Positions 19,500 to 63,642 of a stretch of DNA of 64,000 bases are shown piece after piece (position 1 is the first letter of the stretch; each line of letters starts with the position of its first letter). The DNA is from Entoloma clypeatum. Its lineage: Eukaryota > Basidiomycota > Agaricomycetes > Agaricales > Entolomataceae. The DNA lies in the NCBI GenBank assembly GCA_963565915.1, contig OY751496.1, positions 1,550,001-1,614,000 of the forward strand, read 5' to 3'. Below the pieces are notes generated by a model. It saw only the letters and a list, made by a program, of their open reading frames with translations, was not told where the DNA came from and ran no database searches. Made by a program: the position numbers and the translations under genes.

Positions 19500-20289
19500 G
19501 ACTCACTGTAATTTCATCGCTTCTTGATCCGCTACCACCATGTGCACAGCCGCCAGTGGAGCCAACACCTCGCTTTATCGCCACATTGCGCGACATCCAG
19601 CACTCTGATTGGTATCAAAACACTCTCCAGGCCTCCTCCCTGTCATTGTTTATACAATGGCATCGAGATCAGGCCGATCCAGAGGTCGGGGGGGTCGGGG
19701 GGGGGGCACCTGCTCCCTCTCGTGCTCCAACTCCCAGCCTTTCGCAACAGGATGAATCCATGTGGAGTGAACTCCCCCAGGAGCCGTCCACTCTCTCTAG
19801 CATGACCAACTGGCACTACGAAACCTCCGCCGAACATAATGCTTGCTCCCAAGCTGAAGCTCGTGCTCGCACTCCACCATCTGCAAGTGTGTCCCCTCAA
19901 GTCCGAAAGAAGGCCCGACAGGGGTCAAGCCCCGGCTCCCCCTCTCCCTCTCCTCCTCCTCTGTCCTCTCTCGAGCAAGTTACCGCCCTCTTGCCCCTCC
20001 TAGGATCTGTGGTTGAACGCCTGGATCAATTTATTCAGAATAACTCCTCTGGCGCTGGGGCGGTTCCCAACAGCGTCGACATTGAAGCGGCCACCCAGGT
20101 CTTTGGCTATCTGGTAGAGTGGGTGAGTAAACCCGAGACTCTCCAACATTTTCGTGACAATCCAGGTGCGAAGGACCTTTTTGGTCCTGTCTACCAACAC
20201 ATGGCGATGAAGTTTAATGACATCGGCCTTTACACCCTGGCGGAAGCTGTGGCTGCTTTGCCTCTCCCTTCCCCTCCTCTGACACGTTG
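19500..20289 (+). mobile_element. LINE-X 5' part with its 5' target duplication
   Basis: GACTCACTGTAATTT at 19500-19514 is followed by the start of a non-LTR retrotransposon. The open frame from about 19556 (no ATG; first codon GTG) encodes an ORF1 start: FIATLRDIQHSDWYQNTLQ, a Pro/Ser linker, and SVDIEAATQVFGYLVEW … LFGPVYQHMAMKFNDIGLYT. It breaks off at 20287 inside LPSPPLTR and joins copia integrase. Over the shared 193 bases it differs from LINE-C by about nine changes, mostly transitions. The same 15-base duplication follows the poly(A) end of the LINE at 51966, in inverted orientation, so the 3' end of this insertion is probably there. Confidence 0.7.
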
Positions 20290-20555
20290 AAACGCTGGGA
20301 CAATTTGACATCTGACTGTCCACGACTCTCCTCAGTTGAATGGAGCCGCCGAATGCAGCCACCGAACGCACATTGAGCGAGCATGCTGTATGATAATTGG
20401 CGCAGGTCTAACTCAAAACCTATGGGGCGAAGCCGTCCGCCACAGCGTTTGGATCGGTGCCAGGGTCCCCTCTCATGCAACACCTGAATTCATCGCGCCT
20501 ATTGAAAAAGCGACAGGGCGCAAACCTGACTTCAGGGGTTTGCTGGAGTGGGGAG
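20290..20555 (+). pseudogene. Cop-3 integrase fragment
   Basis: Encodes HLTVHDSPQLNGAAECSHRTH IERACCMIIGAGL and LWGEAVRHSVWIGARVPSHAT, the third catalytic block of a copia integrase (family NGxAER), with the Glu kept here. It begins abruptly at the LINE-X junction and is interrupted by LINE-C; the reading resumes at 22289. Confidence 0.8.
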
Positions 20556-22288
20556 CCCAGGTCTTTGGCTATCTGGTAGAGTGGGTGAGTAAACCCGAGA
20601 CTCTCCAACATTTTTGTGACAATCCAGGTGCAAAGGACCTTTTTGGTCCTGTCTACCAACACATGGCAATGAAGTTTAACGACATTGGCCTTTACACCCC
20701 GGCGGAAGCTGTGGCTGCTTTGCCTCCCCCTCCCTCTCCTCTGACACGTCGGCCCCCCCGACCCCCTCCTCCTCAACCTCCTCCCCCCACTGCCCCTGCG
20801 GCGGTGCCAGTTAATCTGGCTGCTGGTGCTGCTACAGGTGGTGGTGCCATGGACCTGGACGTGGAACCCCCTGGACCGAACCGTGCCCCTGCTGGCCCCC
20901 CTCGCCCCTCCCCCTCCAGTCGCAAGAGGCCGCCTCGTGCTGCTCAGGCACCTAGTGGCCCTCTGCCTCCTCCTCCCCCTGTGAACCCCCAACCTGGGCG
21001 GAACACACCTCCTGTTGCTAGGTGTCACCCTTACAACACGTCCAATGGCCCCTCACGCTGCTCCATCGTTGTTGTCGTGGATGCGAAGGATACTATGGTA
21101 GACCTTCTCCCACTGGCCACATGCATCTCTCGCCATGTTGACTCATTCCAGAGCTCAATCATGGTTGAATCCTTCCGCCTGGCTTACGGTGGGCTCTGCC
21201 TCACCACAACCAGCGTCCCTTCCCCCTCCGATCTCTCCAGGTTGGAAACCTTTGTACACTCCGTCGTTCCCGAAGGATCCACAGTCTGATGCGAGGTGCC
21301 TTCATCCCGCTCATTCTGTAAACTTGTAGGTGTCCCGTTTTACCACGGTGACAGACCTATCACCTCCAAGGATGCTGAAAGTGCCCTCCACTCTTCTGTC
21401 TTCAAAGACAGCATCCGCCTTGCGGCTCCACCCTGGATCGTTCGTGATTCCAGGCGCGCTGACACATGCACTATCTATTTCGACATCTGGGACTCCCAAA
21501 CTGGCTCCCGGATGAAGACATTCGTCAACCGTTCCCTAAACTTGGGGACGACGGTCTGCTTTTTCTGAAAGGCCTCCGTGAAGATTGGTATGCCTCTCTG
21601 CACCCGCTGCTGTTCATGGGAACATAACACAAACTTCTGCAACTCCACACACATATTCTGCCCCATTTGTAGGGGTCCTCACCGCAAAGAAAACCATCGC
21701 TCTCTTGCCACCTGCTGCAAGGGACGCCCTGATGCGAACCCTCCTGTTCCTCCCACCGCCGAGGGGACTCCTTGTCCTCACAACGCTCATTGCAAGAACT
21801 GCAGCAAACCTCATGCTGCCAACTCTCCACGCTGTCAGTTTTGGCAGCACCGTTTTGACCGGGGCTGGATCATGGCCCGATATTTGAGGGGCGAGCCATC
21901 TGGGCTCGACCTCCATGTATGTCCCTTGACTGGGGAAACCGGTACTCGTCGGAAAGCCCCTGCCTCTGGTCGCGGCCGTGATGATGGGAGGTGTGAACTG
22001 GTCATGGGGACGCTTAAAGTCATACTCCCCTCAAGGAGTATCCAGCTACATGTATGTTGTCTCTCTCTACATATCGTGTTACTTTTGGTGTATGCTCTCC
22101 TCTGTATTCCTTTGATTGCATCTTATTGCTGTACCGTCTTTTCTATTTTTTGGACATTTCTGTGCTAGCCCACATGCACGTTAAAATTCTTTACTGCCGA
22201 CTTGTAGTAGTAGGTGACCGGACTGCCCTCAGGGTACCGGTATATAAATTGTTGACACCAAAAAAAAAAAAAAAACTGGAGTGGGGAG
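20543..22288 (+). mobile_element. LINE-C, 5'-truncated, ORF1-only, with 13-bp TSD
   Basis: Non-LTR retrotransposon of 20556-22275 inserted in Cop-3 integrase. CTGGAGTGGGGAG flanks it on both sides (20543-20555 and 22276-22288), and it ends in a tail of about 15 A. Its 3' end (TATATAAATTGTTGACA) is shared with LINE-2. Between the ORF1 end and the tail there is no ORF2, so this is an internally deleted or ORF1-only copy that must have been moved by proteins supplied by another element. Confidence 0.9.
20556..22168 (+). pseudogene. LINE-C ORF1 (gag-like, CCHC)
   Basis: RNA-binding ORF1 protein. A Pro-rich middle (PPRPPPPQPPPPTAPAAVP) is followed by a folded part (SIVVVVDAKDTMVDLLPLAT), then three cysteine knuckles: MPLCTRCCSWEHNTNFC, CPICRGPHRKENH and CKNCSKPHAANSPRC. 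The arrangement matches the ORF1 of LINE-2 (CNRCWRFGHPSNTW, CPICGEPHTIKFHC, CINCKGSHRADDHVC). TGA codons at 21287-21289 and 21566-21568 interrupt one otherwise continuous frame, and the family suggests Arg (CGA). Both arms of the inverted duplication share these stops, so they came first. Confidence 0.8.
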
Positions 22289-24459
22289 TACCTGTATGGG
22301 TTAAGGACCTGCATGCTGGTAAGCTGGATCCATGAGTGAAGGAGGGCCGTTTTTTGGGATATGATGATGAATCCAAGGGATATCGTGTCTACTGGCCAGG
22401 GAAGAACAAGGTCTCAGTTGAACACAACATTTACGTTGACCAGATGGCAATGCTTGAGCCTGGGGATGTCAAATTCGAGGGGGAGTGGGAATCGGTCGAA
22501 AAACCAATTATTTCGAATCCTGTCACCCCCAGCAAGTCTTCAGAACAACCCACAATGTCAGAAACACCGAACACACCTGATACCAGCACTGCAACTCCGC
22601 CAAACGACTCCTCAAAGTCCTCAGCACCAGATCCCTATCATGCAATGAAAACACGCCGCAATTCACTAGCTGGTCTTCCCCAGTACAACAAAGAAAGATA
22701 CGGCTGTGGAAAACATTGAACCGCTGCTGGAGATACCCATATCGTTGAGGACGAAGGTCTTGAACCAGGGGGAGTCAACTGGGAGCTGAATGCGTCCAGA
22801 ATGAACTGGTTCTGTGAGGCTGTGCACACAGCCGTGGCAGCTGTGTCAGATGATCAACCACGCATTGATGACGTAATCAACAGAATGGAATCTGAACAAT
22901 GGAAGGCCGGGATGGAGGAAGAACTCACTCAGATTGAGAAACTCGCCACCTGGGACGTTGTTGAAGCACCTTCGGATGCCAACATTGTCCCTTCCCACTG
23001 GGTTCTCCACCGCAAATGCAACGCCCCAAGGCAATATTGTCCGTTATCACGCACACATTGTCACAAAAGGATTCATGCAAATTTTCAGGAAGGACTTCAC
23101 CGAAACATTCGCGCCCACCATTCGCCCAGCTACCTTCCGCATCTTACTTGTGTTAGCTGCTTCTAAAGGCCGCGGCATCATCATTGAGCAAGCCAATGTC
23201 AAAAACACATACCTCAACTCTCTGCTCAAAGAAAACAAAGTCATTTATCTGGCTTTACCACCTTACTACAAACCTTTTTGTACCATTCCCAATGATCTCG
23301 CCAAATCTGGCAATCACATTGTTCTCCGCCTATGCCGACCACTCTATGGAACAAAACAAGGTGCTCACCACTGGTACCAAGAGCTCAAACGAATTCTCAT
23401 GAGCCTCGGGTTCCACGTCTCTCAGGCCGATGAGGCCACCTTCTACCGCATTGAGGGCGACAATTTCGTCATTATAGCTGCTGCGACTGACAATTTCACC
23501 ATTATCGCCAACTCTTCTGAGTCTTCTGCACATATCAAGAGGGAAATGGGCGACTTTTTCGAACTTGTTGATTTAGGCTCCATCAGCTGGCTCCTTGGTG
23601 TTAACGTCACCCGCAATGTTGAGAACCGTGCCATAGCTCTCGGCCAAGAAACCTATGTCGACCAAATCCTCACCTGTTTCGGTCTTGACAAGGCAAAACC
23701 GATGGCTACCCCTATGGAACATGGAGCCAACTTCACGCCAGACTCCCCAGCTGTCTCATCGACACTTCTCATGCTGTCTGAAAAGACTATCTATTGGGAG
23801 ATGATTGGGTCTCTTATGTACCTCTCAACGATGACATGCCCAGACATCACGTATGCTGTCTCAACATTGTCTCAGCACCTCGACTCACCCCATACCACTC
23901 ACCTCGAGGCCATCAAGCATGTCTTTCGCTACCTCATTGGTACAAAACATCTCTGCCTCATCCTTGGCAGTCACTGCCTTGCAATACCTCTGGTGTTTTA
24001 GGGTTTTTGGATGCTGATTGGGTGTCTCACCTCCATCGCCACTCTATCTCGGGCTTGGCATTTTTTGTTGGGATTGGAGTCATTTCCTGGAGTGCCAAGA
24101 AGCAGCCCATCATCACTCTGTCCAGCACCGAGTCAGAGTATGTGGCCCTCACACATGCGACCAAGGACATCATCTGGATACACAAGCTTCTCACCGAACT
24201 TTCCTTCCTTTATAATCATTGCCTTCCTACCACTCTTCATTGCAACAACCAAGGCACTATTGAACTTTCCAAGAACTCCCATTTCCATGCCAGGACAAAG
24301 CATATTGACAATCATTTCCACTTTGTTCACCAGGCTGTCAACCAAGATTACATTCGTGTCAAATATGTTCCCACCGACGAGATGGTTGCCGACATTCTCA
24401 CCAAGTCGCTTGCATGTGTCAAGTTCACATTGTTCCGTGAATTCCTCAATGTTGTTTGA
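22276..24459 (+). pseudogene. Cop-3 pol 3' half (IN end, RT, RNase H)
   Basis: Integrase tail (GRFLGYDDESKGYRVYWPG, HNIYVDQM), a Ser/Thr/Pro linker, then RT from about 22870 (MESEQWKAGMEEELTQIEKL, HIVTKGFMQ, RPLYGTKQGAHHWYQELKR) and RNase H (FLDADWVSHLHRHSISG, KKQPIITLSSTESEYVALTH, KHIDNHFHFV). The first RT aspartate block reads QANVKNTYLN (family QADVKNAYLN) and the second reads ATDNFTII (family DD), so the polymerase site is destroyed twice. Frame changes lie near 23020 and 24000. A polypurine tract (CAAGGGGGAG) follows. Confidence 0.9.
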
Positions 24460-24481
24460 CTATGTTCAGATCAAGGGGGAG

Positions 24482-24798
24482 TGTTAAGACTTTCGATACT
24501 CACAGGTCTACCGATTTTTATCACATTCACTTATTTGTGGCGCATCACTCACATTACCTAATCCTTCATAGTCTACAATACTTTTTTTTGTAGCCAACAC
24601 CTCAGTCTGTGTTCACCATGTCCTGAGGTGTAAGTCTGATATATTATCCCACTGTCATTCCTTTACTTATGTACCTTAGTCTCTCGTTTATCCTATAGGT
24701 ATATTCAATATACTCAGTCCGTGTTCACCATGTCCTGAGGTTCTCTTGTTTATCCTATAGACCCCTGGCCTCCCTATTTCCGGTCCACTGCCTTCAAA
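24482..24798 (+). repeat. Cop-3 3' LTR with TSD TGGGC
   Basis: 317 bases, TGTTAAGACTTTCGATAC … CACTGCCTTCAAA. Its mate is at 63321-63637 on the minus strand, equal in length and nearly identical. The flank at 24799-24803 is TGGGC, and the complement of TGGGC lies outside the mate at 63638-63642. The end reads CAAA rather than the usual CA; the boundary was set by the primer-binding site of the mate. Confidence 0.8.
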
Positions 24799-24803
24799 TG
24801 GGC

Positions 24804-25271
24804 TTGTAGAGGTCACCATGCTCCCTCTGCAATGACACAGTCACCTGAGATGTGGTTGGCTTCTCCTTCCGTTTGGTGAGCACAAAACCCACATGCATCC
24901 ATGATGCTAACCCATCAATGTTCACAGATTTTCTTCAGGTTCTTCATATAGTCATTGACAACATCACTTGTGTCATTCTCCTTGGAAAAATTACCTGAAT
25001 GGACCAGGTTCCCAGTGGCATACATGGCCAGTACCTGCTCAACCTGGAAGGAGCTGTAAATTGGAATATGAGCACAATGGTTTTGAGTATGTACCACAGC
25101 CATTGACAATGCAATTGCACCTCTTCGAACTCCATAGTCGCCAATTGAGTTTTGCACAAGTTTTAGAAGAGAAGATGCAGTTTCAACAATGAACATGGCC
25201 TTGCAGAATCTGAGTGGTTGCTGGAGTTCATCATGGTGAACTTGGGTAGTTGTCATAACCATGCAATTCAT
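24804..25271 (-). pseudogene. Possible DUF6532-like gene fragment
   Basis: 118-residue minus-strand frame (25271 to 24915) with DYGVRRGAIALSMAVVHTQ, YATGNLVHSGNFSKEND and VVNDYMKNLKKICEH, then TGA and further plausible codons (WVSIMDACGF). The RRGAIALSMAVV … Y.TG … FS block reminds me of the DUF6532 proteins common in agaricomycete genomes, which have no established function and often lie among transposons. Similarity is judged from memory. No start or full length is visible. Confidence 0.3.
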
Positions 25272-26499
25272 ACATCCGACACATCCAACAACTCTGATTT
25301 ATTCCTTAAGTTGGTATTGTTGCCACTTTTGCAAACTCTGTCCTCCAACTTTGGTCACTCCGACCTCTGGTCACCTCCGATGTCTGCACTATGCCTATCT
25401 TGCAGTTACATGGTGTATACTTGCAATCTTGGCTGCAGACAGTTCACTACTTGCATCTGCAAGCATTGCAAACAACCTCAGGTCTCTTCAATAAATTGGC
25501 ATTATAATCTTTTCGACACATTGATTTTCTGGACATCCAACTTCTCCACCTTGAATGTCTGACCTACTCTGCTCATTCCAATAATTTGCTCTGCACACCT
25601 CCGATGTTTTTCACCACTTCTGTTATTTTTCTATGACTCTTGTCTCTTGAGATAGACAATGGGACACCTATCCTAAGGGGAAAATAGCCACCAAGTGAAA
25701 ACACCAATCACTTTCTTCATCACTTCCAACATTTTATACCATATCTGATCACCTCCACAGTCTCTCCCAATATTGTTTTTGGATGCAGTTTCTTTTGTGC
25801 CCTCTACAAGATTCAATCCTGGTCAAGAGATGACACCATTACCACTGTTCTACAACACTGATTCAGTGCTCGGACCTCTGACAAATCTGCTCTGCTCCAG
25901 TCATAGACTGGCCAAAGTTCAGTTCACAAACTTTGTAAACTCAGTTCGAACCTGAACTGAACCTGAAGTTTGAGGTCCAAGTTCACAGCCAAACTGAACC
26001 TGAACTTTTTATGGAGGTTCAGGTCCTGAGGATGGATGGACCTGAACCTGAAGTTTGAACTTGCTGAACTTCAGCCCAGCAGAGACCAGTGATTACGCAA
26101 GTTGTGATGCGTCCAGACCCATGACTTTGTTGATTTGCATAATCACTCAATCTGTTACAAAGATTAATACAGGATGGAGGGGTCATATTTTGTACATATA
26201 TGGTACTGTCACATGATATCATGGATCCTCTTTTTCATTCACTCTCATGTACCCTCAGTAGCACCATATATATTGGTCAAGCTCTGTGTGGTGCTAGGTG
26301 GACTGGAGAGGAGTTGTAACAGGTAAAACTGTTACATTTGTATGAGCTACAGTTTTCGGACAACCAAGCATACATCAAGACTTATTTTTGTTGCAAGAAG
26401 CCGATTCTCGTGCACCCCTTCAAGATAACTCTTTAGGATTCAAGTATTTATTACTTTTGAATCTACACTATGACCTCAAGATCTACAAGATCATGAGAG
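25272..26499. other. Unassigned DNA with a palindromic-word repeat
   Basis: No convincing gene. At about 25875-26085 degenerate copies of GAACCTGAACTT and AAGTTCAGGTTC alternate in both orientations, the same construction as the ends of the 6135-7310 element but with a different word. TGTCACATGATATCATGG at about 26206 starts an AT-rich stretch of unknown kind. Confidence 0.45.
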
Positions 26500-27135
26500 A
26501 TGGCAAAAACTCAAAGTCTTGCCACAGAAAGTCAGAGAAGTCATGAAATGGCACATGAAAACATGCCACACCACCTTTCAAACCCTGTTTTTGGACAGTC
26601 TACAGACTGTTTGAGAGTGTTGATGCATGTATCACACAACCATGAGCCAAGAACACATGTTTTTGGGCTTCAGAATCATTCACAGGTGAAGTTGGGTGGT
26701 CAACCCAACTTCAGTACGATGCAACTGTGGGTACCAAAATCTTATGCCAAGGTAATTTGGCCACTGGTAGATTGGCCAGTGTTGGAAATATTCCCAAGGG
26801 TAGACTTTGGGAAAGTTTCAGTTGTTGAAGAAGAGATGTGGGGGAAGTGTAATCTCCACATTGATGTTTTACAAGCTGTGAGCCACACAGCTCACAGAGG
26901 CACAAGAAAAAGCTTCCTCAATGCAGGTAGAGATCCATCTACCAGCTGTTATATTAATATGTTTGTAACAATAATGGAGCATATTTTAGAGTTGACTGCG
27001 AGGGGAGTTTTGACCTCTTCAGATCTAAATCTTTATGATGAGTATCATTGTGAACATGGGAGGAAGGAGGCTTCCCCCCCAAAGAAAATAGTGCTTACAG
27101 GCAGGAAGTCTCACCTGCTTGTAGATAAAAAATAA
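26500..27135 (+). CDS. Hypothetical ORF, 211 codons
   Basis: Open frame from MAKTQSLATESQ to HLLVDKK. I do not recognise it. The sequence is His- and Ser-rich at the N-terminus with a more ordinary middle (MQLWVPKSYAKVIWPLVDWP, YINMFVTIMEHILELTARGV) and a basic C-terminus. No signal peptide, membrane span or zinc motif is visible. The surroundings contain no other gene, so it may be a remnant of a host gene or of a transposon. Weak support. Confidence 0.25.
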   Translation: MAKTQSLATESQRSHEMAHENMPHHLSNPVFGQSTDCLRVLMHVSHNHEPRTHVFGLQNHSQVKLGGQPNFSTMQLWVPKSYAKVIWPLVDWPVLEIFPRVDFGKVSVVEEEMWGKCNLHIDVLQAVSHTAHRGTRKSFLNAGRDPSTSCYINMFVTIMEHILELTARGVLTSSDLNLYDEYHCEHGRKEASPPKKIVLTGRKSHLLVDKK

Positions 27136-27520
27136 AGCCTACATCAGAAGGTCTTTCTGATAGGTGAAAATGTGGGATTCAAATGCCCACATATAAAGCA
27201 AGCCCTTTATGAGGAAACACAGAAAATGACTGTTGAAGTCTTCTCATTACATGGAAAATCTGGGTCTGAAGAAGACAATGGATTCGAGAAAGCATTCACA
27301 AAATCCCTTCGTGTTCTTATTGGCATGCAGCCCTCTTCTTGAGGGAATTGGAAAAATTGTGGAGATAAAACCACGATACAAAATAAAAAATCAGAGGAGG
27401 GAGAGTCACCTCTGCTCCATTCTCTTCCAACTGACAGGGATGGTTGTGCCTATTTTAGAAGTGGCCTATTTGGGAAGTGAAAAAGTGGGTATTTAGAGTG
27501 AGTGAGCAAGAAATTACAAT

Positions 27521-27600
27521 GGTTCTGTGGCTTAGTTGGTTAAGTCGTTAGAATAATAGTATATACTATAGAGGCTGAGAGTTCAAGTCTTGCTGATGGC
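27521..27600 (+). other. tRNA-like (RNA polymerase III promoter-like) segment
   Basis: GGTTCTG at 27521 is followed by an A-box-like TGGCTTAGTTGG (27528-27539) and a B-box-like AGTTCAAGTCT (27580-27590). Spacing and boxes resemble a tRNA gene, but the T stem pairs poorly and no clean cloverleaf forms, so it is a tRNA-derived relic rather than a tRNA gene. A more decayed copy is at about 6978-7068. Confidence 0.4.
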
Positions 27601-27811
27601 ACAAATTTTGTTTGCTGCTGGCCCCTTGGAGCGTTCTGTGAAAAAGACCGGTCTTTGGCTGGTCTTTCAAATCTTAAAATTTGGAGAGAACCGAGGACTG
27701 GTTGTGATTGAAAACCTTAAAGCTTGAGACTGCGGTCCAGTCTCAAACCAGTTCGTTCGGGTCCAGTTTCGGTCTGGTTTTAGGTTCTTGAGACTGGACT
27801 TAGAAACACTA
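27521..27811 (+). mobile_element. Right half of a hAT-like element (family of 6135-7310)
   Basis: Shares with 7018-7310 the block TACTATAGAGG … GCACAAATTTTG, then GGTCTTTGGCYGGTCTTTCAAAT, the reiterated GGTCCAGTTTCGGTCTGG words, and the end CTTAGAAACACTA at 27811. The left half is not found upstream, so it is truncated. Confidence 0.6.
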
Positions 27812-28441
27812 CCTGCTCCGGCTTGTTTGAAATGACAGAAAAGAGTGTTGTGGTTCCTATTCCATGACAACAAGAACATTGTGGTATACAACCCACAACA
27901 AAGCCAAAGGTGAAGAAAACCACAATGAAAGCGAACTGCTCATCATGGTGGAGGTCAGGTTGGATACTGACCTTGCAAGGGCGATGGCCTGCACCCCTGT
28001 GCCGACAATCCTCATTCGGCAGTAGCTGGAGGTGAGAACAACAAGCATTGTCATTCCAAAATGATGTGCACAACAGGGTACATCAGAGTGAGAATGAGAA
28101 GATTCCTTGTGCCCTTTCTCTCAGCAAAGGTGGTGGTAACAACCTCCACAACAAGATGGAGGGATGCTGGCATAAACACCATCATCATCATAGTGGAAAG
28201 GGGAGGAGGCAGTCAAAAGATGCTCCTCCAATCAAAAAGGATGTTCATTGTGATGACAAGCATGTGGTTCAGAAACCACGAAAAGAAGTCATTGAAAAAT
28301 GACTGTGAAAGCTGCAGGGACATGAAATGTGTCCTGCATGCTCCAAAATGCTGGAGACCTTTGCCCAAAGATGAGGTATGGAGAATGGAGATGATGGATA
28401 AATGATTGTCATCCATCTTGTAAATTGAAATACCAGACGAC
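27812..28441. other. Unassigned DNA
   Basis: 630 bases with only short frames in all phases. Minus-strand frames (for example LTSSYCRMRIVGTGVQAIAL) look faintly membrane-protein-like but are broken and not assignable. Confidence 0.4.
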
Positions 28442-28866
28442 TAGTGTTTTGAAGTCAAGTTACGTTAAGTTAATTGGTCCAAAATGCTTTAACTTGACTT
28501 TAACTGGTTAAAAAGTTTCCAGAAAAGTCTTAACTTTAACCTTAACTGCAATTAACCAGTTAAAAAAACAACAAGTTGAAAAAGTTTTAACCTTAACTTA
28601 ACTTAACTTAACCACAATTAACCAGTTAATTGTTTTAACTTTATATGTTTTCACTCATTTTGTGGTTTTTTTCATATCTCTAGAGTGATGATATTAAAGG
28701 TTTTAAACAATATTTCAATTATGATTATATTACAAATGACCTGATTTGAATACTTTTGTAACATTTTACAACAATTCAGACCTTATTTCTTTAACCTGAA
28801 ATTAACTGGTTAAAAGTTTTTCAAACTTGGCTTAATTTAACTTTAACTGCAGTTAATTGCAGTTAA
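28442..28866. repeat. TTAACTGGTTAA-word repeat, hAT-like left end
   Basis: Starts TAGTGTTTTGAAGTCAAG, matching the terminal consensus of the 6135-7310 element, and then consists largely of TTAACTGGTTAA, CTTAACTT and their inverses. It has no coding content. The right end is missing: it stops at 28866 against Gyp-5. Confidence 0.6.
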
Positions 28867-29972
28867 AGTTCTTCTTCCTCTTCCTCTGCTTCATCTTCTG
28901 ATGGCTCATCCGACGATTGTTCTTCGTCCTCACTTACGTCTTCCACCCAAGGGCCTCGCGGAGCCTCCTCCGCTAATCCCGCATCTGGCGTCGGACCCAT
29001 CTGACAAGTGCGGATATGTGCCTGCTTGAATTTGTGGATTTTCCGCTCCTGAGTGGCCTTCTGTTGGCAAGTCCAATATCAAACTGGACATCAACTCATT
29101 TTCACCTTCCCAGAGGTTCAATCTACCTCAGGATTGTGTTCCTTGAGCCATGTGAATCCAAGTACAATATCCTGCTTTCCCAGTCCAGTTACTGCGAGCT
29201 GGGTCCACTCCATGTGATCCTGGTATTGGAGTATAACATCCAGGACCTCTGATATCACTCTGGCATCGTTCAGAGTACTGTCAACATTATAGACAGGAAT
29301 TGCACGTTGTAGCCTTTGGGTACTGAGTCGATGTTTCTCTACCAGCGAGTGGTCAATGAAGGAGCCGGTTGCTCTGCTATTGAGGAGAGCCTTTTGGAAA
29401 AGGGTATCCTTAGTATCCATTGTCTTCAGAACAACATCTAGTTCAATAGCGTTGTCAGAGCCGTTGGAGGCCAGAATGTATTTTTTCGGAACTTGTCGTT
29501 CCTATTTTTGGAGTCGGGGTCGGACAACTTTCGGAGTTGGAGTAGGTGTGACTGAGGGTTCATTCTGTGCTGAGTCATAGGGAGAAGAAGTAAATTCTGA
29601 TTCATCTATAGACAAGGAAGCATAATGATTGCTAGTGGACAACGAGGGCACACCGTTCACTCATTGTCGGGGGGAAAATCCTCTTGTTTGTCTTCTGCTT
29701 GCTCCGACACTCTGGCAATGTTGGAGGTAGATGCCACTGCATCTTTAGCGGCCAGTTGGTCCATCACGTACTCCTTCTGTTTGTCTGACATTATGAATCA
29801 GACGTCAAATGGGAGTGGGCACTTGCGACTGAAATGACCAGTCTTACCACATCTGAAGCATATGTTGGTGTTCTTACCCCTAACATGAGAGGCATCAATG
29901 TCCATCACATTGGGGTTGCGGATGGTCAGCTGGAGCAATGACTGTCAGAGGTGCGCGTGGAATATAGGGGAT
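28867..29972 (-). pseudogene. Gyp-5 gag end and protease
   Basis: Reading down from 29972: MDIDASHVRGKNTNICFRCG KTGHFSRKCP, a CCHC knuckle, then KQKEYVMDQLAAKDAV, a linker, and protease ALLNSRATGSFIDHSLVEKH RL … VYNVDSTLN … VLGFTWLKEHNPEVD. The protease active site reads NSR where the family has DSG (DSGATGSFID), so the catalytic Asp and the Gly are lost. A stop and an acidic tail (DEEQSSDEPSDEAEEEEEE) follow before truncation at 28867. Confidence 0.85.
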
Positions 29973-29977
29973 GAAAG

Positions 29978-30279
29978 TGTTGAAACTTTTCCATCACATA
30001 GATTAGATTACATCATGTGACCATTTACATATCTTCGATTACATACTTATTTGATTGGTACAAACAGTAGTACAGTATATAAAACCAGGAAACTGTCAAT
30101 ACCAACAAGTTGTCTCTTGACTCTTAACCAGCTCTATTGCTCTTATCAGCCTCAACCGCTCTCACCAGCCTCACCCTCCCAAACCATGTAAGTGGCTAGA
30201 ACGGTTAAGTAGAGTACTTCCACACTGTAGCTGTGTTGCTCAATATGCCTGTGGCTAGCGCCCAGGTGGAACTTCAACA
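29978..30279 (+). repeat. Cop-2 5' LTR
   Basis: TGTTGAAAC … GTGGAACTTCAACA, 302 bases, with TATATAAAACC near 30077. It differs from the 3' LTR at ten positions by my reading, all transitions, several of them at CpG. Confidence 0.95.
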
Positions 30280-53690: not shown

Positions 53691-53943
53691 CAAACCCCTG
53701 AAGTCAGGTTTGCGCCCTGTCGCTTTTTCAATAGGCGCGATGAATTCAGGTGTTGCATGAGAGGGGACCCTGGCACCGATCCAAACGCTGTGGCGGACGG
53801 CTTCGCCCCATAGGTTTTGAGTTAGACCTGCGCCAATTATCATACAGCATGCTCGCTCAATGTGCGTTCGGTGGCTGCATTTGGCGGCTCCATTCAACTG
53901 AGGAGAGTCGTGGACAGTCAGATGTCAAATTGTCCCAGCGTTT
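51966..53943 (-). repeat. Right arm of the 2-kb inverted duplication
   Basis: Complement nearly identical to 20290-22275. Beyond 53943 the copia sequence continues upstream without a break, whereas the left arm is cut at 20290. Confidence 0.85.
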
Positions 53944-54770
53944 TTGAGGAGTTTCGTGAATTCAGTGCTGAGATATTTGCCCCCGCGATCGCTACCAAGA
54001 CACTTGATATCAGCGTTTCACTGCATCTTCGCCCATTTCTCATACTGCTGGTACTTCTCCATGGCTTCTCCTTTCGTTTTTAGAAAATCCGCTCGATCTT
54101 CGCCCGTTGCCATGTCGTCATAAAACTGGCAGTAGTTGTGTCCGCCGAGGGATGTGACCTGGGCTGGACCCCATAGATCAGTGACAATCTTTTCCCTGTA
54201 CTTCATGTACTTTGTTGTACTCCCCTTTGGAAAAGCTTGCTGGTGGGCCTTTCCTTGGATGCAAGAGTTACAGAACTTGGGTTTTGTTTTTGGATCAATA
54301 ATGATACCGGAAACGGCACCTTTCGACACCATCTCGCGAAGGGTTCAGAAGTTGAGGTGTCCAAGTTTACAATGGAGTTCATTGATGTCCATAGGGGCAG
54401 CTGCGACATTTGCATGGAGACCGGGGGTGGGATTTACAAGGGCCAAGGGATCAAAACGGTATAGACCACAGATACGAGGGACTGAGCCGAGGATTTTTTG
54501 CTCGGGACGTGCGCCACGAATGATGCATGCACCATCTTCAATTAAAATGGAGCATCCAGCATGATTGATACAGGAGACGGAAATGAGTGTGAACACCATG
54601 CTAGGTGCGTAGTAGACACTTTGGAGTGTAATGGTCATGGTTTTGTGTCCAGTACAGGCAGGTAGCTTCACCTTGAGATTCCCTTTACCGATGGCACTAA
54701 AAGTGCAACCATCAGCAGCCTTGATGGGTTTGGGAGTGATTTCTCAATAGTTTAGGAATTTGTCCTTGTT
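53678..54770 (-). pseudogene. Cop-3 protease end and integrase
   Basis: Downward from 54770: the end of protease (MKLPACTGHKTMTITLQSVY YAPSM), integrase zinc finger (ELHCKLGHLNF then TGA, CNSCIQGKAHQQAF), core (IVTDLWGPAQVTSLGGHNYC, LGSDRGGKYLSTEF), and NGAAKCSHRTH where the third catalytic residue should be Glu (the left arm keeps Glu). The stop after LGHLNF is TGA in place of a likely CGA. Two further stops occur (near 54018 and 53925). The LINE copy at 53677 interrupts what follows. Confidence 0.85.
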
Positions 54771-54783
54771 GGGGGAGAAATGG

Positions 54784-55809
54784 CTACTCACGCCACAGTC
54801 GATGATAAACGCCAGCAGATGGAGCTGCGGCATGGGCAGTGTGATCGTGCCCAGATGCAACGGCGAGCACGACATTAGGGGTGTCGTCGTCAGTCTCCTC
54901 TTCAGTGGCAATGGCTATGATGGCATAATTGTTGTCATTGTCCAAGTCATTGTTGGCAGCGTTCACAGACTTGTTGGCCTTCTCCTTGGCCTTCACCAGC
55001 TTTTTCTTCCACCACTCTGGTGGGACATCAGCTCTGCCTCCCCCTTTTTCGAAGCATCCTTCCTTTAAATGACCATCCTTTCCACAATTTGTACATTTCT
55101 TTGAACTTTCCCCACCATTACCGCCTCTTCCTTTTCCCCTCAATTTTTGGCCATGAGAACTACCGACAAATTTGGCATGTGTGGCAGCCATGGCAGCATT
55201 TGATTGGTTAATGCTGTCTTCCATTGTCGCATTGTTGGCCTCTTCGGTGATGTGCCAGATGAGATCAGAACTTGAGATCTTTGTCTTTGTTTGATGCGCG
55301 GTGGTATCGAGGGTTGTAAAAAGGGGTCGAAAATGGGTGGTAAGGGAGAGAGAGGTGCGGATGCGGGTGTTAAAGCTGTCATCGGTGATCTGGGAACCTG
55401 TTTCAGCGAGGCGTTCACGAATGGCCTTCATAGTGCCAAGATGGGTTCGCATGTCTTCAGCCTCGGTATAACGGATTGTCTGGAGCTTGTTGAGGAGGTC
55501 TGTCTGAAACATGTCCCCTTTTGTGGCATGGATCATGACCAGCTTCTTCCAAACTTCAGCGGCACTGCTGCCTTTGATTTCGATGAACATGGACGCATTG
55601 ACCATGCCATAAATAAATTCGCGGACTTGGGCCTCTTGTTGTTCATAGAGGTCGACAGCTTCCTCATGCTTGTCAAGTTCATCATCTGTCATTGCGGTGG
55701 TTGATTTTGGTTTGAACCACTTGCCATTCTGCTCTGTAATGGTATCCGGTTTGCGCGCGGTTCCGCAAAGGTGTCTCCATAGTCCTTTCATTGCTATTAT
55801 AGCATTCTC
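54784..55809 (-). pseudogene. Cop-3 gag, main part
   Basis: 335-codon open frame, MKGLWRHLCGTARKPDTITE … , with the copia gag core (EEAVDLYEQQEAQVREFIYG, SSAAEVWKKLVMIHATKGDM FQ), a zinc knuckle CTNCGKDGHLKEGC, and an Asn/Asp-rich tail. Its natural N-terminus (MANEESSMSTIKVVNLPKLM) lies at 63206-63304, separated by the LINE-2 insertion (TSD CTATTATAGCATTCTC), so the visible ATG is not the real start. Confidence 0.88.
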
Positions 55810-55904
55810 TTTTTTTTTTTTTTTTTTTTGGTCAACAATTTATATAGCGGTATACTAGGGGTACAGTCTGCTTGACATATAGTAAACTACATCGATCTGA
55901 GGAT

Positions 55905-58900
55905 CTATGTACGCATGAAGAACAAGCGGCGCAAAGCTCTGTTGAGCTGATAAGTCCTCGCACCAGGACAGGGGAGTCTGTTGTAAACAAACACATTAGT
56001 ATGCATGCCTGAATATTCAGCCGCACGACACAGGAGCACTCCAACCTTGCGAGGTTGGCCATTGACAGCACTGGGGGGTGTCTGCGCCCTACCCACCAAA
56101 GAAGCGCCTGTGTGGTTCTTACCCTTCAATCGTGTTCGCTTGCCAGAGGGGGCTGCACCCCTTTGTACCCAGCACGCTACCACGTGACTACCGCCAACGG
56201 TTGTGTTGGGCGTTGGACGATCCCTAAAGGCAAAGGCCCCTGGGTTGTCCATAATGAATTTCCCAAAGACGTCCCAGATGGAAGTGTTCCTCGAGAAGGT
56301 GGGCATGTCTGGGGGCCTGGTGGGGTGGTGCAGACATTTGTAGAATACGTGGGCGAAGTCCTCGACGGACCCCGATCCACAGTCACATTGTTCAATTTTG
56401 TCACCGATATTGAACCTATGCCTATAGTGGCCAATTGGAGCGTGACTGGTGAGGCCGCAAACCATTTGTGTTGTGAGGGATTGGAAGTGGCCCACATCCT
56501 TAAGCCATGTGCTGCCCTTGAGGTGGGACAGCTTCATTTGTTTGGCCTGAGCATGATCTTGGTGTCTGACGCACGATCTCGGGAATTGGTAGTGACGGCC
56601 AACGTACTTTGGGGACTGGTACAAACTGTTCCAGTCATCAAGCATGTCATCCGTGAACTGCTTTGTGTTCAAGTCAAGGGATCTGGAGGCAGACTCACCA
56701 CACTCAATGCGTATTGAGGAGGCGAAGTCATGCACTGCACGATGGGGTTCGAAGCCATGGTCCGAGCAATCAGGGACATGGTGGAAGAAGACCTTGGATT
56801 TCAGACCGGGTTCCTCAAACCAAGGGACCAGGTTGCTGATGATGGCAAGCGCAGTTGCCTGCGAGGAGTGGAGGTCCAGATCTGTGGCACAACGGATGGC
56901 GTTGACAGAGTTGGTGAATATGTGGATTTCTTCCAGTTGGGAGAGACCCCCTAGCAGAGTGACCAGGTTGGAGAACCCCTGTCCTATTGCTAGGGTTTCA
57001 GTGTTGTCAGAGACTGCGAGGCCACCTGCTGCCCAGTCTTTGTTGATGGAGTACCCCATGTGCCAGGTTATCAAGCTGCAACAGCTTGATGACCCGATGT
57101 GAGGGAGGGAACGGCCACGTCGGTGACAATGATGGCGGACTTGTTAGAGCAGATGTTGGTGTTGAACACCTTATTAAGGGTGATGAGGTGCAACTTCCTG
57201 GCTTCGGCACGCTTCTTAGCGGTCCTGCCGCGAATAAGGGTGATGTTGTGGATGATGCAATCAGAAAAGCGGTCGAGGACACGTTTTCCTGGCTCGTTGT
57301 AATTATTGAAGGGTGATAGGGGGACAGTCACATTTGCACGGTATGCCCAGATATCGACGAGGGGGGATTTAAGATTATATATAAATTCCGGGGAGTACCA
57401 TGATGGCTTTGAGGGATCTTCCTCATCGCAGACCATGACGGTCATGTGTCTTGGTGCAAGAGAGTGCATACGGACATGGTTTCTGCAGGAGAGCTTCTTT
57501 AGGTGCAGGTGCACCGGAGGCAGACCGGCAAGGGATTCGACCGCCCCAGTGGGGGTGGTACAGAAGGCTCCCAGGATCCACAGGGCTGCGCGCCGCTGGA
57601 CTCTGGAGATAGACTTGATGACTCCCTTGTTACGGGCACCATCAAAGTTCCATAAATTAGCACCATACAGGGCAATTGGTAGAATACACAATTGGTCGAA
57701 AAGAAGCCCAGGTACCTCCAGAAGGTCTTGGGGACAAGAGGGGAGTTGCTGGTGAAGGGCGCGTATCCTAGGTCAACTGGGGGGTTATCATCACCATTCT
57801 TCCTGGAGAAATGGAACGCCTCTGACTTGGAGTGCTCAAGGACAAGCCCTAGGGCTGAGGTCAACTCAAACAGACACTTGTATGCTTTTTTTAGTTTGGC
57901 GAGGTTTTCTTTCCACATCTTGGACTGGACTATGATGGTCCCGTCGTCCACGTAAGAAATGAGGCAGGCCTGTGATTGTTCGGCGTGGAACACGTACATC
58001 AACGGGGCAAGATAGATGGATGATAGCACAGGGGAGAGGGCAGAGCCCTGTCCTACGCCAATGTCCACAGAAGAAAGGTCTGAGAGGTCATCCTCCCAGG
58101 CATATTGAGTCTGTCTTCCTATTAAATAGTTGGAGAAGAAATCCATGACAGTGTCGGGAAATCCCATCCTATCTAATATGAGCGAGATAACCGAGTGGTT
58201 GAGAGAGGGAAAGTACTGTGCCAGGTCAATGGCAACAACACTTGTCTTGAGCTTCCTTGACCATCCTGCGCGAATGAGGTGGGTGAGGAATTGTCCCGCA
58301 TCTTCAGTGGAGTTCTGTCGAACCCCTCCGAATTGTCCTGGGTGCAGCAGACCATAGCGGGCGAGTTCCCACTGGAGTCTGTTGGCAATAGCTTTCTCAA
58401 CTAGTTTGCCCAGGGTGTTTAGGAGCACGATGGGATGAAACACTTTGGGAACGTCATACACCGGCTTATTTGGTTTAGGAATAATGACGGTCATTGAGAT
58501 TTTGAATGTGTCAGGCCAGAACCCCGCCGAAAGGCAGGCGTTCAGGATCCAGACAAACAACTTCAAGATATGCTCATGTGCAGTCAGGCACTTGAGGTGG
58601 GACCATGTAAGATGGTCGGGGCCAGGGGCAGACTGGCTGGAGCAGCCAGCCAGTGCCTGGAGGACCTCTTGCGATGAGAATGGAACCCAAGCCCTTTTGG
58701 GCTGAGGTTCGAGAGTGCTGCACAGCCTGTCGGGGTCGACAGGGCGCACTTCGGCAGACTGAAAAGACTTATGAAATGCATCACAAGTCTCGGCAGTTGT
58801 GGAGCAGGTCTCGCCTTCAAAGATAATAGCCTCAGGAGAGGCGTTCTTTCGTGGGCTGACCCAGGAAGTAAGGTCCCAAGGACGCTTGTTTTTGTTGGAG

Positions 58901-59993
58901 ACTTCGTCAATTTTCTTGTCAAAGAAGTTCCGTTTGGCGGTGCGAATGATTTTATGCATATCGCGCCAGTCTTGGTCTGTCTTACCCGAGTTGGAGTAGG
59001 TGCGCCACCCTGCCTTGCAGTCCTTGTCCCACCAGCCCTTCAACCGGAACGAGTCCTGGGGAGAGCAAGAGAATTTGGTCCACTCAGCCAGAATGAGCTC
59101 CTGTACCTTCTGGGTAATACTAGAGATGTCCTCCCTTGAGGCCGTGGCTGGGATAGGGATGGAGGCAATAGATTCCATGAGTGTGGACAGAAAATGAGTT
59201 TCCTCTTCCGAGTCTGGCACTATACGGTAGTGTTCCTTCGCGTTGACGAGGGGGGATCTGAGGAGGGTGATGATCGAGCGGGGATCTGAGGAGGGTGATG
59301 ATCGAGCGGTGGTCTGACTCGTCAGGGCTCCCAAGTTTAATGATCGAGTCTTTGTCCATGTTAGGGAGGAAGACCAGATCGATGATGGATGGGGCATTGT
59401 TATTCTTGGGGAAGTGGGTAAACCCAGTCCTATGATGAACAAGACCATGAGAGAATGCAAAGTCTGAGAGGAGAGACGCATTGTGGTTGTAGCGCATCAC
59501 TTCAGGGTCCCATAGCGGCAAGGGGCAATTAAAATCACCGCCTAGGTACCGAATGGGAGGAAGGGATGTTCCGAGGGTGGCAAGGATACATATGGCAGTG
59601 CCCTGCGCATCCGAGTAGGCATTAATTAGGTTGATCTGGCGCTCAGGGACAGACAACGTAAGTAGGTTGACATCTCGATAACGGATGATGTCTGAGCAAA
59701 GTTTAGGTTTCATGGCGGTGCGCCGCCTATGTACGTAAACAATGGCGTGGGGTCGAAGATCCTCATCTAGATTAGATGGGTCGAGGACAGGCTCCGAGTG
59801 GTGGAGGCACATACAGTCAGGGTGGTTTGGCGGACCCACAAGGGGCTTGCCGTTTTTACTCGTCATGGAGGCGACATGTCTTATGGTAGCCCAAGGGGGC
59901 TCTTGCACAAAGATGATGTCAAGATTATCTTTATGATGCTCTAACATTGTTGAAAGGAGAACGCTCTTTCGGTAAACGTTCTGGGAGCAGATA
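55905..59993 (-). pseudogene. LINE-2 ORF2 (APE endonuclease, RT, RNase H)
   Basis: Starts at the ATG at 61637 (MNKYEGLH), crosses the Tc1 insertion between codons 8 and 9, and continues ICSQNVYRKSVLL. Endonuclease: IIFVQEPPWATIRHV, YLGGDFNCPLPLWD, ESDHRSIITLL. RT: PGPDHLTWSHLKCL, HPIVLLNTLGKLVEKAIANR L, VVAIDLAQYFPSLNH, GVGQGSALSPVLSSIYLAPL, SYVDDGTIIVQS (both aspartates kept). Then CILPIALYGANLWNF, RAALWILGAFCTTPTGAVES LAGLPPVHLHLKKL, an RNase H part, and a C-terminal finger (QCDCGSGSVEDFAHVFYKC). A 28-bp tandem duplication near 59250-59306 shifts the frame between endonuclease and RT. About 40 codons are missing near 57690, and a further shift lies near 57075. Confidence 0.9.
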
Positions 59994-61614
59994 CAGTGCC
60001 TCACAAAACTGATTCAATGTTTGCTACTTTGTGAATACCTTCAAAATAACTTTGCAAATAATGCCAATCAAAAGAAGGTATTGGTACCGGGTTAAAAGCC
60101 CTGCTTCAGGACTCTCAGAATCTGCAATAATTATGTAATTCCCATAAAAAATGATCAATATATGATCAAATTACTCCAGGGACTCATTGAATCAGTTTTG
60201 TGAGTATGTACAATAAATACAGTATTTTATACTTTAGTACTTGGTATTACCCCCCTTAGCTTTGATTACTGCCTCTACCCTTCTTGGCATACTTTCTATC
60301 AGGTTTTGACACACTTCTGGCTCTATATTATTCCACAACTCTGCTCCTCTGTCCCAAATCTCCCAGACTCCCTTGGGTGGTGTTGGATATTCATTCAACT
60401 TCCTTTTAATATGAACCCAGAGGTGTTCAATAGGATTGAGGTCTGGGGACTGTGCAGGCCAATCCAGCAGAGCAATATTCTTGCTGTCCATCCATTTTTT
60501 GGCCTTCTTGGAGGTGTGCTTGGGGTCATTGTCCTGCTGAAAAATGATCTCCTCTTCAGAGATTCCACTCTCCTCCATGCTGGGCAGCAAATTGTCCTCC
60601 AAAATGGACACATACTGATCAGCATCCATCCTCCCCTCAACCTCTGCAAGTCTCCCCACACCTTCCCAACCCATACAACCCCAAACCATAATATTTCCTC
60701 CCCCAAACTTGACTGTGCCCTGAACCTCTCTTTCAATAAGCCCCTCACCCTTCTTTTTCCAGACCCATTCCTTGCCATCTGACCCAAACCTGTTGATTTT
60801 GATCTCATCTGACCAAATGACCCTCTTCCAGTCCTCCACTGTCCATTCCCTGTGCTTCATAGCAAATGCCAACCGCCTCTTCCAATGTATGGCCTTTAAG
60901 AAAGGTCTTTTCTTCTTTGTTACAGCCTTGAATTCATGTTTTCTGAGAACCCTTCTCACAGTTTCTGGGGAGACAGGATTGGAGATGACAGTGTTGATGT
61001 GTTTGGTAGCCTGCACAGCATTGGAGGCTCTCCCTGAGGTGATTTGTGAAAGTATGTTTCGTGTGTTGGTGGGAGAAAGCTTGGATGGACAACCACCAGA
61101 AGAGAGATTGCGACGAGGAAGAATATTCTGAAGCACTCTGGAGACAGTTGGTTGGCTGACACCCAGGTTAGAGGCAATATGATGAGTGGAGTGACCATTG
61201 GAGGCCAGGAAAAGGATGTTTTCCTTGTGGGAGGAGGGGATGGGGCACATGATTGGTTGTGGAGGCTGTTGAGGTTGGATTCTTCTTATACAACTTTCCT
61301 TGACAACCCATCAGGGTTCTATTCAAGTTCCATCAGTAAGTCATGACAACTGGTTACCATACAACCAGTGAAGCATTTGATTCTGATAATTGCCATAGGT
61401 ACTCACAAAACTGATTCAATGAGTTGCTGATTTAATTTAATCATATCTCCATGGATTCTGATCTAAATCATATGATTCCTTTATATTCTGAAAGCCCTGA
61501 AGTAGGGCTTTCAATTATATACCAAAGGTTTAATTCAATTGGTATTCTTTGCAGAGTTATATTGAAGGTATTCAAAAAGCAACAAACATTGAATCAGTTT
61601 TGTGAGGCACTGTA
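59992..61614 (-). mobile_element. Tc1-like DNA transposon, TA duplication
   Basis: Element 59994-61612 (1619 bases) flanked by TA. The outermost 30 bases are perfect inverted repeats (CAGTGCCTCACAAAACTGAT …). Longer imperfect inverted ends of about 210 bases each contain an inner copy of the same site in the opposite direction (60187-60206 and 61400-61419). It carries an open transposase gene. It is nested in LINE-2, which is nested in Cop-3. Confidence 0.95.
60234..61250 (-). CDS. Tc1-family transposase (DD34E)
   Basis: 338 residues, no stop or frameshift. N-terminal paired HTH region (ILFLASNGHSTHHIASNLGV SQPTVSRVLQ … GGCPSKLSPTNTRNILSQIT SG … NPVSPETVRRVLRKHEF). Catalytic core with VIWSDEIKINRFG (first Asp), IIFQQDNDPKHTSKKAK (second Asp), and DWPAQSPDLNPIEHLW (Glu). 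There are 34 residues between the second Asp and the Glu, as in Tc1 proteins. Nuclear cut-and-paste enzyme acting on the element ends and inserting at TA. Length is typical of the family. All key residues are present, so activity is possible. Base composition is more AT-rich than the surrounding LINE. Confidence 0.95.
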   Translation of the reverse strand: MCPIPSSHKENILFLASNGHSTHHIASNLGVSQPTVSRVLQNILPRRNLSSGGCPSKLSPTNTRNILSQITSGRASNAVQATKHINTVISNPVSPETVRRVLRKHEFKAVTKKKRPFLKAIHWKRRLAFAMKHREWTVEDWKRVIWSDEIKINRFGSDGKEWVWKKKGEGLIEREVQGTVKFGGGNIMVWGCMGWEGVGRLAEVEGRMDADQYVSILEDNLLPSMEESGISEEEIIFQQDNDPKHTSKKAKKWMDSKNIALLDWPAQSPDLNPIEHLWVHIKRKLNEYPTPPKGVWEIWDRGAELWNNIEPEVCQNLIESMPRRVEAVIKAKGGNTKY

Positions 61615-63189
61615 TGCAAGCCCTCATATTTATTCATAGTTGTACTTAACATACGACTATGTTTGATTGAATGCAGCGATTGTCTTGGTCAGCTGGACGA
61701 GGCGAGGGATTAGATTCAAAGAAGTGGTTAAAGTCCACACTTACGTTTGCTTCTTGGTAATGGCGCCAGATCCAATCAGGGTTGAACTGGCTTTTCCAGT
61801 ATTTGCATACGTGATCGTCTGCGCGGTGGCTACCTTTGCAGTTGATGCAGCATCCTGCATGTTGGCAGTCCTTGTCATCGGGGGTGGGGAGGACTGGGGG
61901 ATTTGCCTTGGCATTCCCGCAGCAGCAGGAGGCAAGGGCACAGTGGAATTTGATGGTGTGGGGTTCACCGCAGATGGGGCAGAGTTTGCTCTTGAGCGGG
62001 CAGATCCATGTGTTGGACGGATGACCGAATCGCCAGCAGCGGTTGCATTGAGGCACTCCAACGTGCTTCTCAGCGGGGTTCAGGACGAGTCAGTAAGGTC
62101 CATACATGAAGACCTTTCCGGCGAGGTTCTTGAGAATGAGACCCCCACAGGAGTCTTCAATATCGAACCAGATGGTCCCAGTGCTAGACAATGGAGAGTT
62201 TCTGGTGAGGCGGGGCTTCGAGTTCTCATAGTAAGAGAAGTCGCGAGCAAAGGGGGCAGACAACATGATGTCGGCGACCTGGAGCTCTCTGACAGGGGAA
62301 CGAGGCGGCCGGATTTCGGGTCATGTTGCGGGGTGAGTCCATAATACGGGAAGTCGCAGATTTTGAGACTCAATTTGAAGGTGGGGATCTCCATGCGAAG
62401 CTCAGTGTCGGGGGCCGAACAAGCACTGGCAGCGAGCTGGGTTTCGAAAAGGCTTTGGAAAATCTTGAGGTCATCCTCGTTGGGGACTTTGTTGGTCGTC
62501 AGGGAGAGACCCCCCCGGTTTGACTCAATGGAAGTGACATGGATCATCCTCTTTGTGTTGCCCAGATGACCATTGATCTGGGTGAAGATGGTCTCCACCA
62601 CCCAAGAAAAGGGGGGGGAGGTGTAAACGGAGACGGACTTGCGAGACCGTCCTGACGTGGTGAAACACTTCTGCTTCTTTCGGCGAGCCTGGCGAGGGCG
62701 AGGTGGGCCTGATGGCAGCCGTGGCTTGCTGTAGGGCGATGGTGGTGGTGGCAGGGAAAGTTTTGGCCATGGCGACCAGCGTTTCCTGTTGCGACTCTGC
62801 AGCGGACTTGCGTTTTTTGGACGCAGTGGTCCAGGGTTGGGCTGCAGCTACAATGGTGGGCGGGGGAGCCCACGCCGAGCCTGCAAGGCCGGAGGGTTGT
62901 TGCTTCGCCGGGGGCAGAGGGACAGGGTGGGATAAGAGCTTGGCGGCCTTCGAGCGAGCTTGGCGGCCGGATGCTCTGGTTGATGCAGACATGCGGGGTG
63001 TGGGTTTAGCTGTCTTCTTAAAGGAAGGTAGCTTCTTAGGGGGTGGCAGAGGTTTGGGATCCTTTGCTGCTATGATGTTTTCGGGAGTTGACGTGAACAC
63101 TGACACCCCAGGGATCTTGACGAGGCAATCAATTAAGATGCCCAGTCCAGTGAGACACACGCCGGAGGGGTCATCCCCTGCAGCATACT
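61615..63189 (-). pseudogene. LINE-2 ORF1 (gag-like, CCHC)
   Basis: From 63189 down: IDCLVKIPGVSVFTSTPENI IAAKD, a Pro/Lys/Ser linker (PPPKKLPSFKKTAKPTPRMS), a middle domain in a second frame (IFTQINGHLGNTKRMIHVTS IESNRGGLSLTTNKVP), and three knuckles (CNRCWRFGHPSNTWIC, CPICGEPHTIKFHC, CINCKGSHRADDHVC). The frame changes near 62650 and 62250, so it is not intact. Also at this end are the first eight codons of ORF2 (61615-61637). The 5' end at 63189 may be the true start or a truncation. Confidence 0.82.
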
Positions 63190-63205
63190 CTATTATAGCA
63201 TTCTC

Positions 63206-63304
63206 AACACGCTCTTGGTACATGACCCAATTTGAGCCATCCTCCATGAGCTTTGGAAGATTAACGACCTTAATGGTGGACATGGAGCTTTCTTCATTTG
63301 CCAT
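63206..63304 (-). pseudogene. Cop-3 gag N-terminus
   Basis: MANEESSMSTIKVVNLPKLM followed by EDGSNWVMYQERVENAI, the typical start of copia gag proteins, ended by the LINE-2 insertion. The gene resumes at 55809. Confidence 0.85.
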
Positions 63305-63308
63305 CGCG

Positions 63309-63320
63309 GGGCCCATAACC
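63309..63320 (-). other. Cop-3 primer-binding site (iMet half-tRNA)
   Basis: GGTTATGGGCCC on the minus strand, directly after the 5' LTR, identical to that of Cop-2. Confidence 0.75.
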
Positions 63321-63642
63321 TTTGAAGGCAGTGGACCGGAAATAGGGAGGACGGGGATCTATAGGATAAACGAGAGAACCTCAGGACGTGGTGAACACGG
63401 ACTGAGTATATTGAATGTACCTATAGGATAAACGAGAGACTAAGATACATAAGTAAAGGAATGACAGTGGGATAATATATCAGACTTACACCTCAGGACG
63501 TGGTGAACATGGACTGAGGTGTTGGCTACAAAAAAAAGTATTGTAGACTATGAAGGATTAGGTAATGTGAGTGATGCGCCACAAATAAGTGAATGTGATA
63601 AAAATCGGTAGACCTGTGAGTATTGAAAGTCTTAACAGCCCA
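63321..63642 (-). repeat. Cop-3 5' LTR with TSD
   Basis: LTR 63321-63637 (317 bases), mate of 24482-24798 in opposite orientation. The bases outside it (63638-63642) are the complement of TGGGC, the same five bases that follow the left LTR. Confidence 0.8.

Follow-up and report, generated by a model that had tools for sequence, protein, structure and literature searches.

Recombination between L1 or Alu retrotransposons in human and chimpanzee genomes has produced inversions with exchanged target-site duplications (TSDs) at their breakpoints (PMC2603318), and the DNA transposon Galileo has generated inversions in Drosophila (PMC2775673). In one-sided invasion repair, one end is repaired by homologous copying and the other is not (Puchta 1998, cited in PMC9369344). 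At the Entoloma clypeatum locus described here, inversion by opposed elements with exchanged TSDs is the known part, and the repaired junction is the unusual one.

The window, the whole 64,000-nucleotide (64-kb) stretch that was analysed, is C15:1550001-1614000 of a 60.08-Mb (60,075,725-base) genome assembly of 20 contigs. It is dense in transposable elements, with Pfam domains of copia, Gypsy-type, LINE and Tc1-type elements in seven of ten reading frames tested, and a search of the whole window with Rfam at gathering scores gave no matches. LINE-X and LINE-C (19515-22275) belong to a LINE family (L005-L032) whose members span some 2.29 kb between TSD and poly(A); neither of two reading frames searched with Pfam gave a domain. 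Its 3' end (TATATAAATTGTTGAC followed by poly(A)) is a near match to the end of the autonomous LINE nested in Cop-3. The family looks like a non-autonomous half-LINE mobilised in trans, presumably reminiscent of HAL1. Cop-3 has a copia RVT_2 domain (Pfam) and LTRs that differ at 11 of 317 bases. The autonomous LINE within it has a 16-bp TSD (copies at 63190-63205 and 55794-55809) and itself contains a Tc1-type element (59991-61615) with 77% terminal inverted repeats and an open transposase frame of 358 codons (60234-61310, minus strand).

Table 1. Features of the arms, the segment between them and their flanks (window positions).
Feature	Position	Strand	Remark
LINE-X TSD, first copy	19500..19514	+	Two genomic places only
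5' part of LINE-X with complete 5' end (element positions 1-775)	19515..20289	+	End at 20289 probable from family bases
Cop-3 internal segment (266 bp), second copy; last 13 bp are the LINE-C TSD (20543-20555)	20290..20555	+	One difference from 53678-53943
LINE-C, 5'-truncated at element position 580, 16-A poly(A)	20556..22275	+	
LINE-C TSD, second copy	22276..22288	+	Single in 5/5 aligned Cop-3-family copies
Cop-3 3' part, 3' LTR at 24482-24798	22289..24798	+	Copia RVT_2 domain; LTR match
Cop-3 TSD TGGGC	24799..24803	+	Single in C5 empty site
Inter-arm segment, very likely inverted, 29,697 bp	22269..51965	.	Both ancestral joins contiguous elsewhere
LINE-X TSD, second copy	51951..51965	-	
LINE of the right arm, resembling LINE-C as far as about 52017 (left-arm 22215); its 9-A poly(A) and final bases may belong to LINE-X	51966..53677	-	
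Cop-3 internal segment (266 bp), original place	53678..53943	-	In family copies, unbroken with upstream Cop-3
Remainder of Cop-3 5' part, 5' LTR at 63321-63637, holding autonomous LINE with Tc1-like element	53944..63637	-	
Cop-3 TSD TGGGC	63638..63642	-	

An earlier note on this DNA had read the window as an inversion recorded by split TSDs and inverted arms, and the features on which it relied are all present (Table 1). The 15-bp duplication that it reported, the LINE-X TSD GACTCACTGTAATTT, occurs at 19500-19514 and, as the complement, at 51951-51965, with no third site in the assembly. About four pairs of repeated 15-mers are expected in a 64-kb window and one such pair alone is not rare; this pair matters because its copies adjoin exactly the 5' end of LINE-X and the inverted poly(A) of another LINE. 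Cop-3 is split as claimed, with its 3' half on the plus strand, its 5' half on the minus strand and TGGGC on the outer side of each. The overlap of the halves forms inverted arms (20290-22268 and 51966-53943) that are 99.5% identical, differing by eight substitutions, one base at the 3' end and poly(A) length (16 versus 9). The comparison of TSDs also bears out that the right LINE carries the 13-bp 5' TSD of LINE-C, CTGGAGTGGGGAG, and at its other end the LINE-X 3' TSD. Same-family elements in opposite orientation lie at both breakpoints, and TSDs have been exchanged between the two LINE copies, that of LINE-X being split over both ends. Duplication of the flank explains why the left LINE-C still has its two original TSDs; its poly(A) ends at 22275, and the position of its second TSD is corrected to 22276-22288. 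Among 32 family copies whose ends were compared, 18 have their own perfect TSD of 13-17 bp (some of the others are truncated or interrupted), and among these copies and the window's own ends a swapped TSD at element ends was found in this window only. One further cross match of 10 bp, between L015 and L012, lies away from the element edges.

Before the insertions and the inversion, 24804 would have been contiguous with 63643 and 19499 with 51950, as the earlier note had predicted, and this genome contains both joins elsewhere, as empty sites in paralogous copies. For Cop-3, the flanks were joined into an 810-base query and searched against the whole genome; positions 68-810 align unbroken at one C5 locus (91%), where TGGGC is single. 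For LINE-X, a 916-base joined query (join at 415) was used and 40 of 560 candidates were scored, giving at least four contiguous loci, three matching positions 145-795 (83-89%) and a fourth matching 179-587 (82%). The first three were aligned and are unbroken through the join, with a single target site. The LINE-C site is likewise uninterrupted in all five Cop-3-family copies that were aligned, out of eight found besides the window's own. The empty sites for Cop-3 and LINE-X are paralogous repeat copies rather than the ancestral locus, but with both joins unbroken there, a different ancestral order is hard to accommodate. Because both predicted joins are contiguous at paralogous loci, and given the swapped TSDs, a 29,697-bp inversion between the arms is very likely. 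This agrees with the proposals that LINE-X and Cop-3 with LINE-C were separate insertions in opposite orientation and that about 30 kb was inverted.

Inverted repeats as long as the 2-kb arms can mislead an assembler, which might have flipped a segment whose real order is the ancestral one, and a single collapsed haplotype would conceal polymorphism. We consider such an artefact very unlikely, as contigs of up to 5.9 Mb and a window without N suggest long reads, and the arm composed of LINE-X, Cop-3 and LINE-C would still need to be explained. The inter-arm segment also contains a Gypsy-type element (40991-48398), probably a young insertion given that its 723-bp terminal repeats are 99.6% identical, which could help to order events.

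The earlier note had placed the exchange near 21.0-21.6 kb, having seen all but one of the arm differences in the 3' third. The substitutions are indeed so distributed, with one at 20351 and seven at 21578-22239 (p = 0.003 for clustering, Fisher), a concentration that would fit one crossover between unlike LINEs near 21.0-21.6 kb and a complex repair at the other end. That placement failed when the arms were compared with the family, in which the median pairwise divergence is 5.8% (372 pairs). With LINE-X as the right arm in 21578-22258, about 37 differences would be expected there; seven were observed, and none of 207 background pairs is as close as the arms. The arms share 19 rare alleles (bases found in at most three of the other copies), including those at 21653, 21686, 21970 and, last, 22215. 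Aligning the arms, which had been proposed as a way to map the switch, showed both to be alike out to 22215 and gave no readable crossover point. On the strength of allele sharing beyond 21.6 kb we reject a simple crossover at 21.0-21.6 kb as very unlikely; later conversion could have erased its signal.

Comparison with 28 other copies assigns the rarer base to the left arm at three sites (21578, 21616, 21621) and to the right arm at four (21878, 21913, 21979, 22239). These seven differences look like changes after copying; the three clustered changes on the left could alternatively be a small conversion patch. Later changes do not fully explain the excess 3' of 21578. At 20351, it is the right arm that deviates from all five Cop-3-family copies. 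Since rare alleles are shared as far as 22215, LINE-X on the right is limited to the last 43 bp or so, the poly(A) and the TSD, so that its remnant comprises positions 1-775 on the left and, on the right, at most these final parts. With two differences there, both at variable sites, against a mean of 1.61 between unrelated copies, the right arm's last 43 bp resemble an independent LINE.

The 5' part of LINE-X differs by 3.6-6.9% from other copies that have a long 5' part. It probably runs to 20289 rather than 20287, as T occupies the next family position in 5 of 22 copies, in which case it abuts Cop-3 (20290) in a blunt junction; if it stops at 20287, two untemplated bases lie between. The more complex join that had been proposed near 20288 is supported, LINE-X and Cop-3 meeting without homology at 20289/20290 and LINE homology lying on the other side, which is the sequence structure of one-sided invasion. 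The 266-bp Cop-3 segment and the LINE are present in both arms, as for a tract copied from an intact donor. The donor of the 266 bp must be Cop-3, whose family copies confirm the original place; the segment at 20290-20555 is the sole partial copy among ten genome matches. Within the shared LINE part, information would have flowed from LINE-C to LINE-X.

The 29.7-kb inversion was very likely made by a crossover between opposed LINEs about 30 kb apart, and these observations make it reasonably probable, in our judgement, that LINE-X had first been broken and repaired from LINE-C and Cop-3. After a break in LINE-X, its 3' side would have invaded LINE-C and copied about 2 kb toward the LINE-C 5' end. 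Because LINE-C is 5'-truncated, a strand copied from the 3' side would lose LINE homology at element position 580 and overshoot 266 bp into Cop-3. Such a run-on would leave the 266 bp of Cop-3 in the repaired LINE-X and create the need for end joining, by which the copied end would have been attached to the untouched LINE-X 5' side at 20289/20290. Crossing over within the new inverted homology would have flipped the segment, either during that event or afterwards.

The main rival is template-switched retrotransposition. A read-through RNA of Cop-3 and LINE-C would have been reverse-transcribed by LINE machinery at the LINE-X target. Synthesis would have jumped, at 20290, onto a second LINE RNA in its 5' part, and a later crossover with the source would have produced the flip. 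Once the inversion is undone, all parts do lie in the same sense between TSDs with a 3' poly(A), and Magnaporthe has LINE chimeras of a similar kind, with 14-bp TSDs (PMC2104539). However, for the copy to land 30 kb away from its source, local insertion or chance would be required, and no source of the LINE-X 5' part above 96% was found among the 40 scored of 42 candidates. The resemblance of the last 43 bp of the right arm to an independent copy argues weakly in the same direction.

Other neighbouring LINE copies bear on both readings. Counts for the 2.29-kb family are lower bounds, 40 of 71 candidates having been scored. Outside the window we compared five pairs of copies lying within 52.3 kb of each other (near pairs), excluding the identical tandem pair L008/L009. 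The 3' parts diverge by less than 2% in four of these five, against none of 319 farther pairs of the same family: 0.30% in L011/L014, 0.36% in L017/L018, 1.7% in L020/L022 and 0.93% over 645 bp in L025/L083, a pair chosen by position before its sequence was obtained and whose next closest copy stands at 3.6%. The exception is L016/L049, 36 kb apart, which is not homogenised (4.4%). In L011/L014 the interiors show one difference in 1456 bases and in L017/L018 none in 1188, whereas the 5' parts of these pairs diverge by 3.8% and 4.1%, in the range of unrelated copies, and every near pair so tested had homogenised 3' parts and 5' parts that were not. Different TSDs within each of these two pairs indicate independent insertions. 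Likeness toward the 3' end and unlikeness in the 5' part would also result, more simply, from 3'-anchored retrotransposition, as the rival reading has it.

L059 and L020 (C1:3066673-3081696) appear to be pieces of one copy, about 12.8 kb apart, that meet at element position 498 and are surrounded by a near-perfect TSD; only the 3' piece, L020, resembles its neighbour L022 (1.7% versus 12%). In three near pairs and the window arms taken together, 9 of 162 bases differ in the last 43 bp compared with 18 of 2564 in the adjoining interior (p = 1.4e-5), a contrast to which variable sites contribute. The base just before the poly(A) also differs in L011/L014 and L017/L018, so it may vary on retrotransposition, a point in favour of the rival.

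For the autonomous LINE we compared two near pairs, three distant copies and the window's own, again with counts that are at least those given (40 of 281 candidates scored). The near pairs are inverted, with spacings of 16 and 21 kb, and over 900 bases show 0 and 1 differences, versus 6.6-11.9% in the other 26 pairs among the eight sequences. Within each pair the 3' flanks are unrelated. The C1 pair has four differences in the last 51 bp and the C15 pair none in the 3' end that was read; a third near pair (C10, 9.5 kb) has equal scores. In the region C1:3311000-3362000 (L011, L014, L084, L085), homogenised pairs from both LINE families lie within about 50 kb.

Over both families, six of seven sampled near pairs (within 52 kb) are homogenised internally, at 0-1.7% versus 3-12% elsewhere, and terminal differences are seen in the window pair as well as in four of the five further near pairs examined at their ends. 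Homogenised interiors, independent ends and the single affected piece of L059/L020 are signs of DNA-level conversion. Local retrotransposition is disfavoured as the source of near-pair similarity because of the two-piece L059/L020 copy and the differing 3' ends; for the C15 pair, which has no terminal difference and in that respect suits the rival reading, it is possible. With such signs of conversion among its neighbours, template-switched retrotransposition is weakened as an account of the window, and we consider it unlikely.

Repair of LINE-X followed by crossover would then have a wider setting, in which the inversion may be the crossover outcome of an ectopic gene conversion that, in the genome-wide sample, homogenises LINE copies within about 50 kb. 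We give roughly even odds to the broader proposal that LINEs within about 50 kb form recombination neighbourhoods, where conversion repeatedly overwrites interiors, each copy keeps its own ends, and a rare crossover flips a segment, as in the window. In a narrow literature search, none of the papers listed announced, in its title or opening, a distance limit on conversion between retrotransposon copies for fungal LINEs. Homogenisation of neighbours by distance is a more interesting lead than the inversion. From the scars in one reference genome, the insertions, a repair and an inversion can be placed in order, and the genome suggests a distance rule for LINE-LINE recombination. If that rule is true, the ages of LINE insertions that lie close together cannot be read from their divergence in such genomes, and islands of transposons would be expected to flip between strains.

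The locus resembles the L1 and Alu inversions, as described in PMC2603318, in having opposed same-family copies at both breakpoints and mismatched TSDs on the recombined copies. It departs from that description in combining one homologous with one blunt non-homologous junction and in the duplication of about 2 kb, including Cop-3, at both ends; the ancestral order is here read from paralogues. With the Galileo inversions, as presented in PMC2775673, it shares opposed copies, exchanged TSDs, chimeric copies and the expectation of single target sites before inversion, whereas the Galileo sites were seen in non-inverted chromosomes, those of the window are seen as paralogues, and the element here is a LINE. 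Like the Magnaporthe LINE chimeras in the account of PMC2104539, the window has same-sense fused parts, a TSD of 14-15 bp and a LINE 3' end; unlike them, it has a 3' end that seems to be independent of the putative source, and its neighbours show signs of DNA-level conversion. Finally, it has one homologous and one end-joined side, as in one-sided invasion repair in the terms of PMC9369344, and differs from it as a natural case, reconstructed from sequence, to which an inversion has been added.
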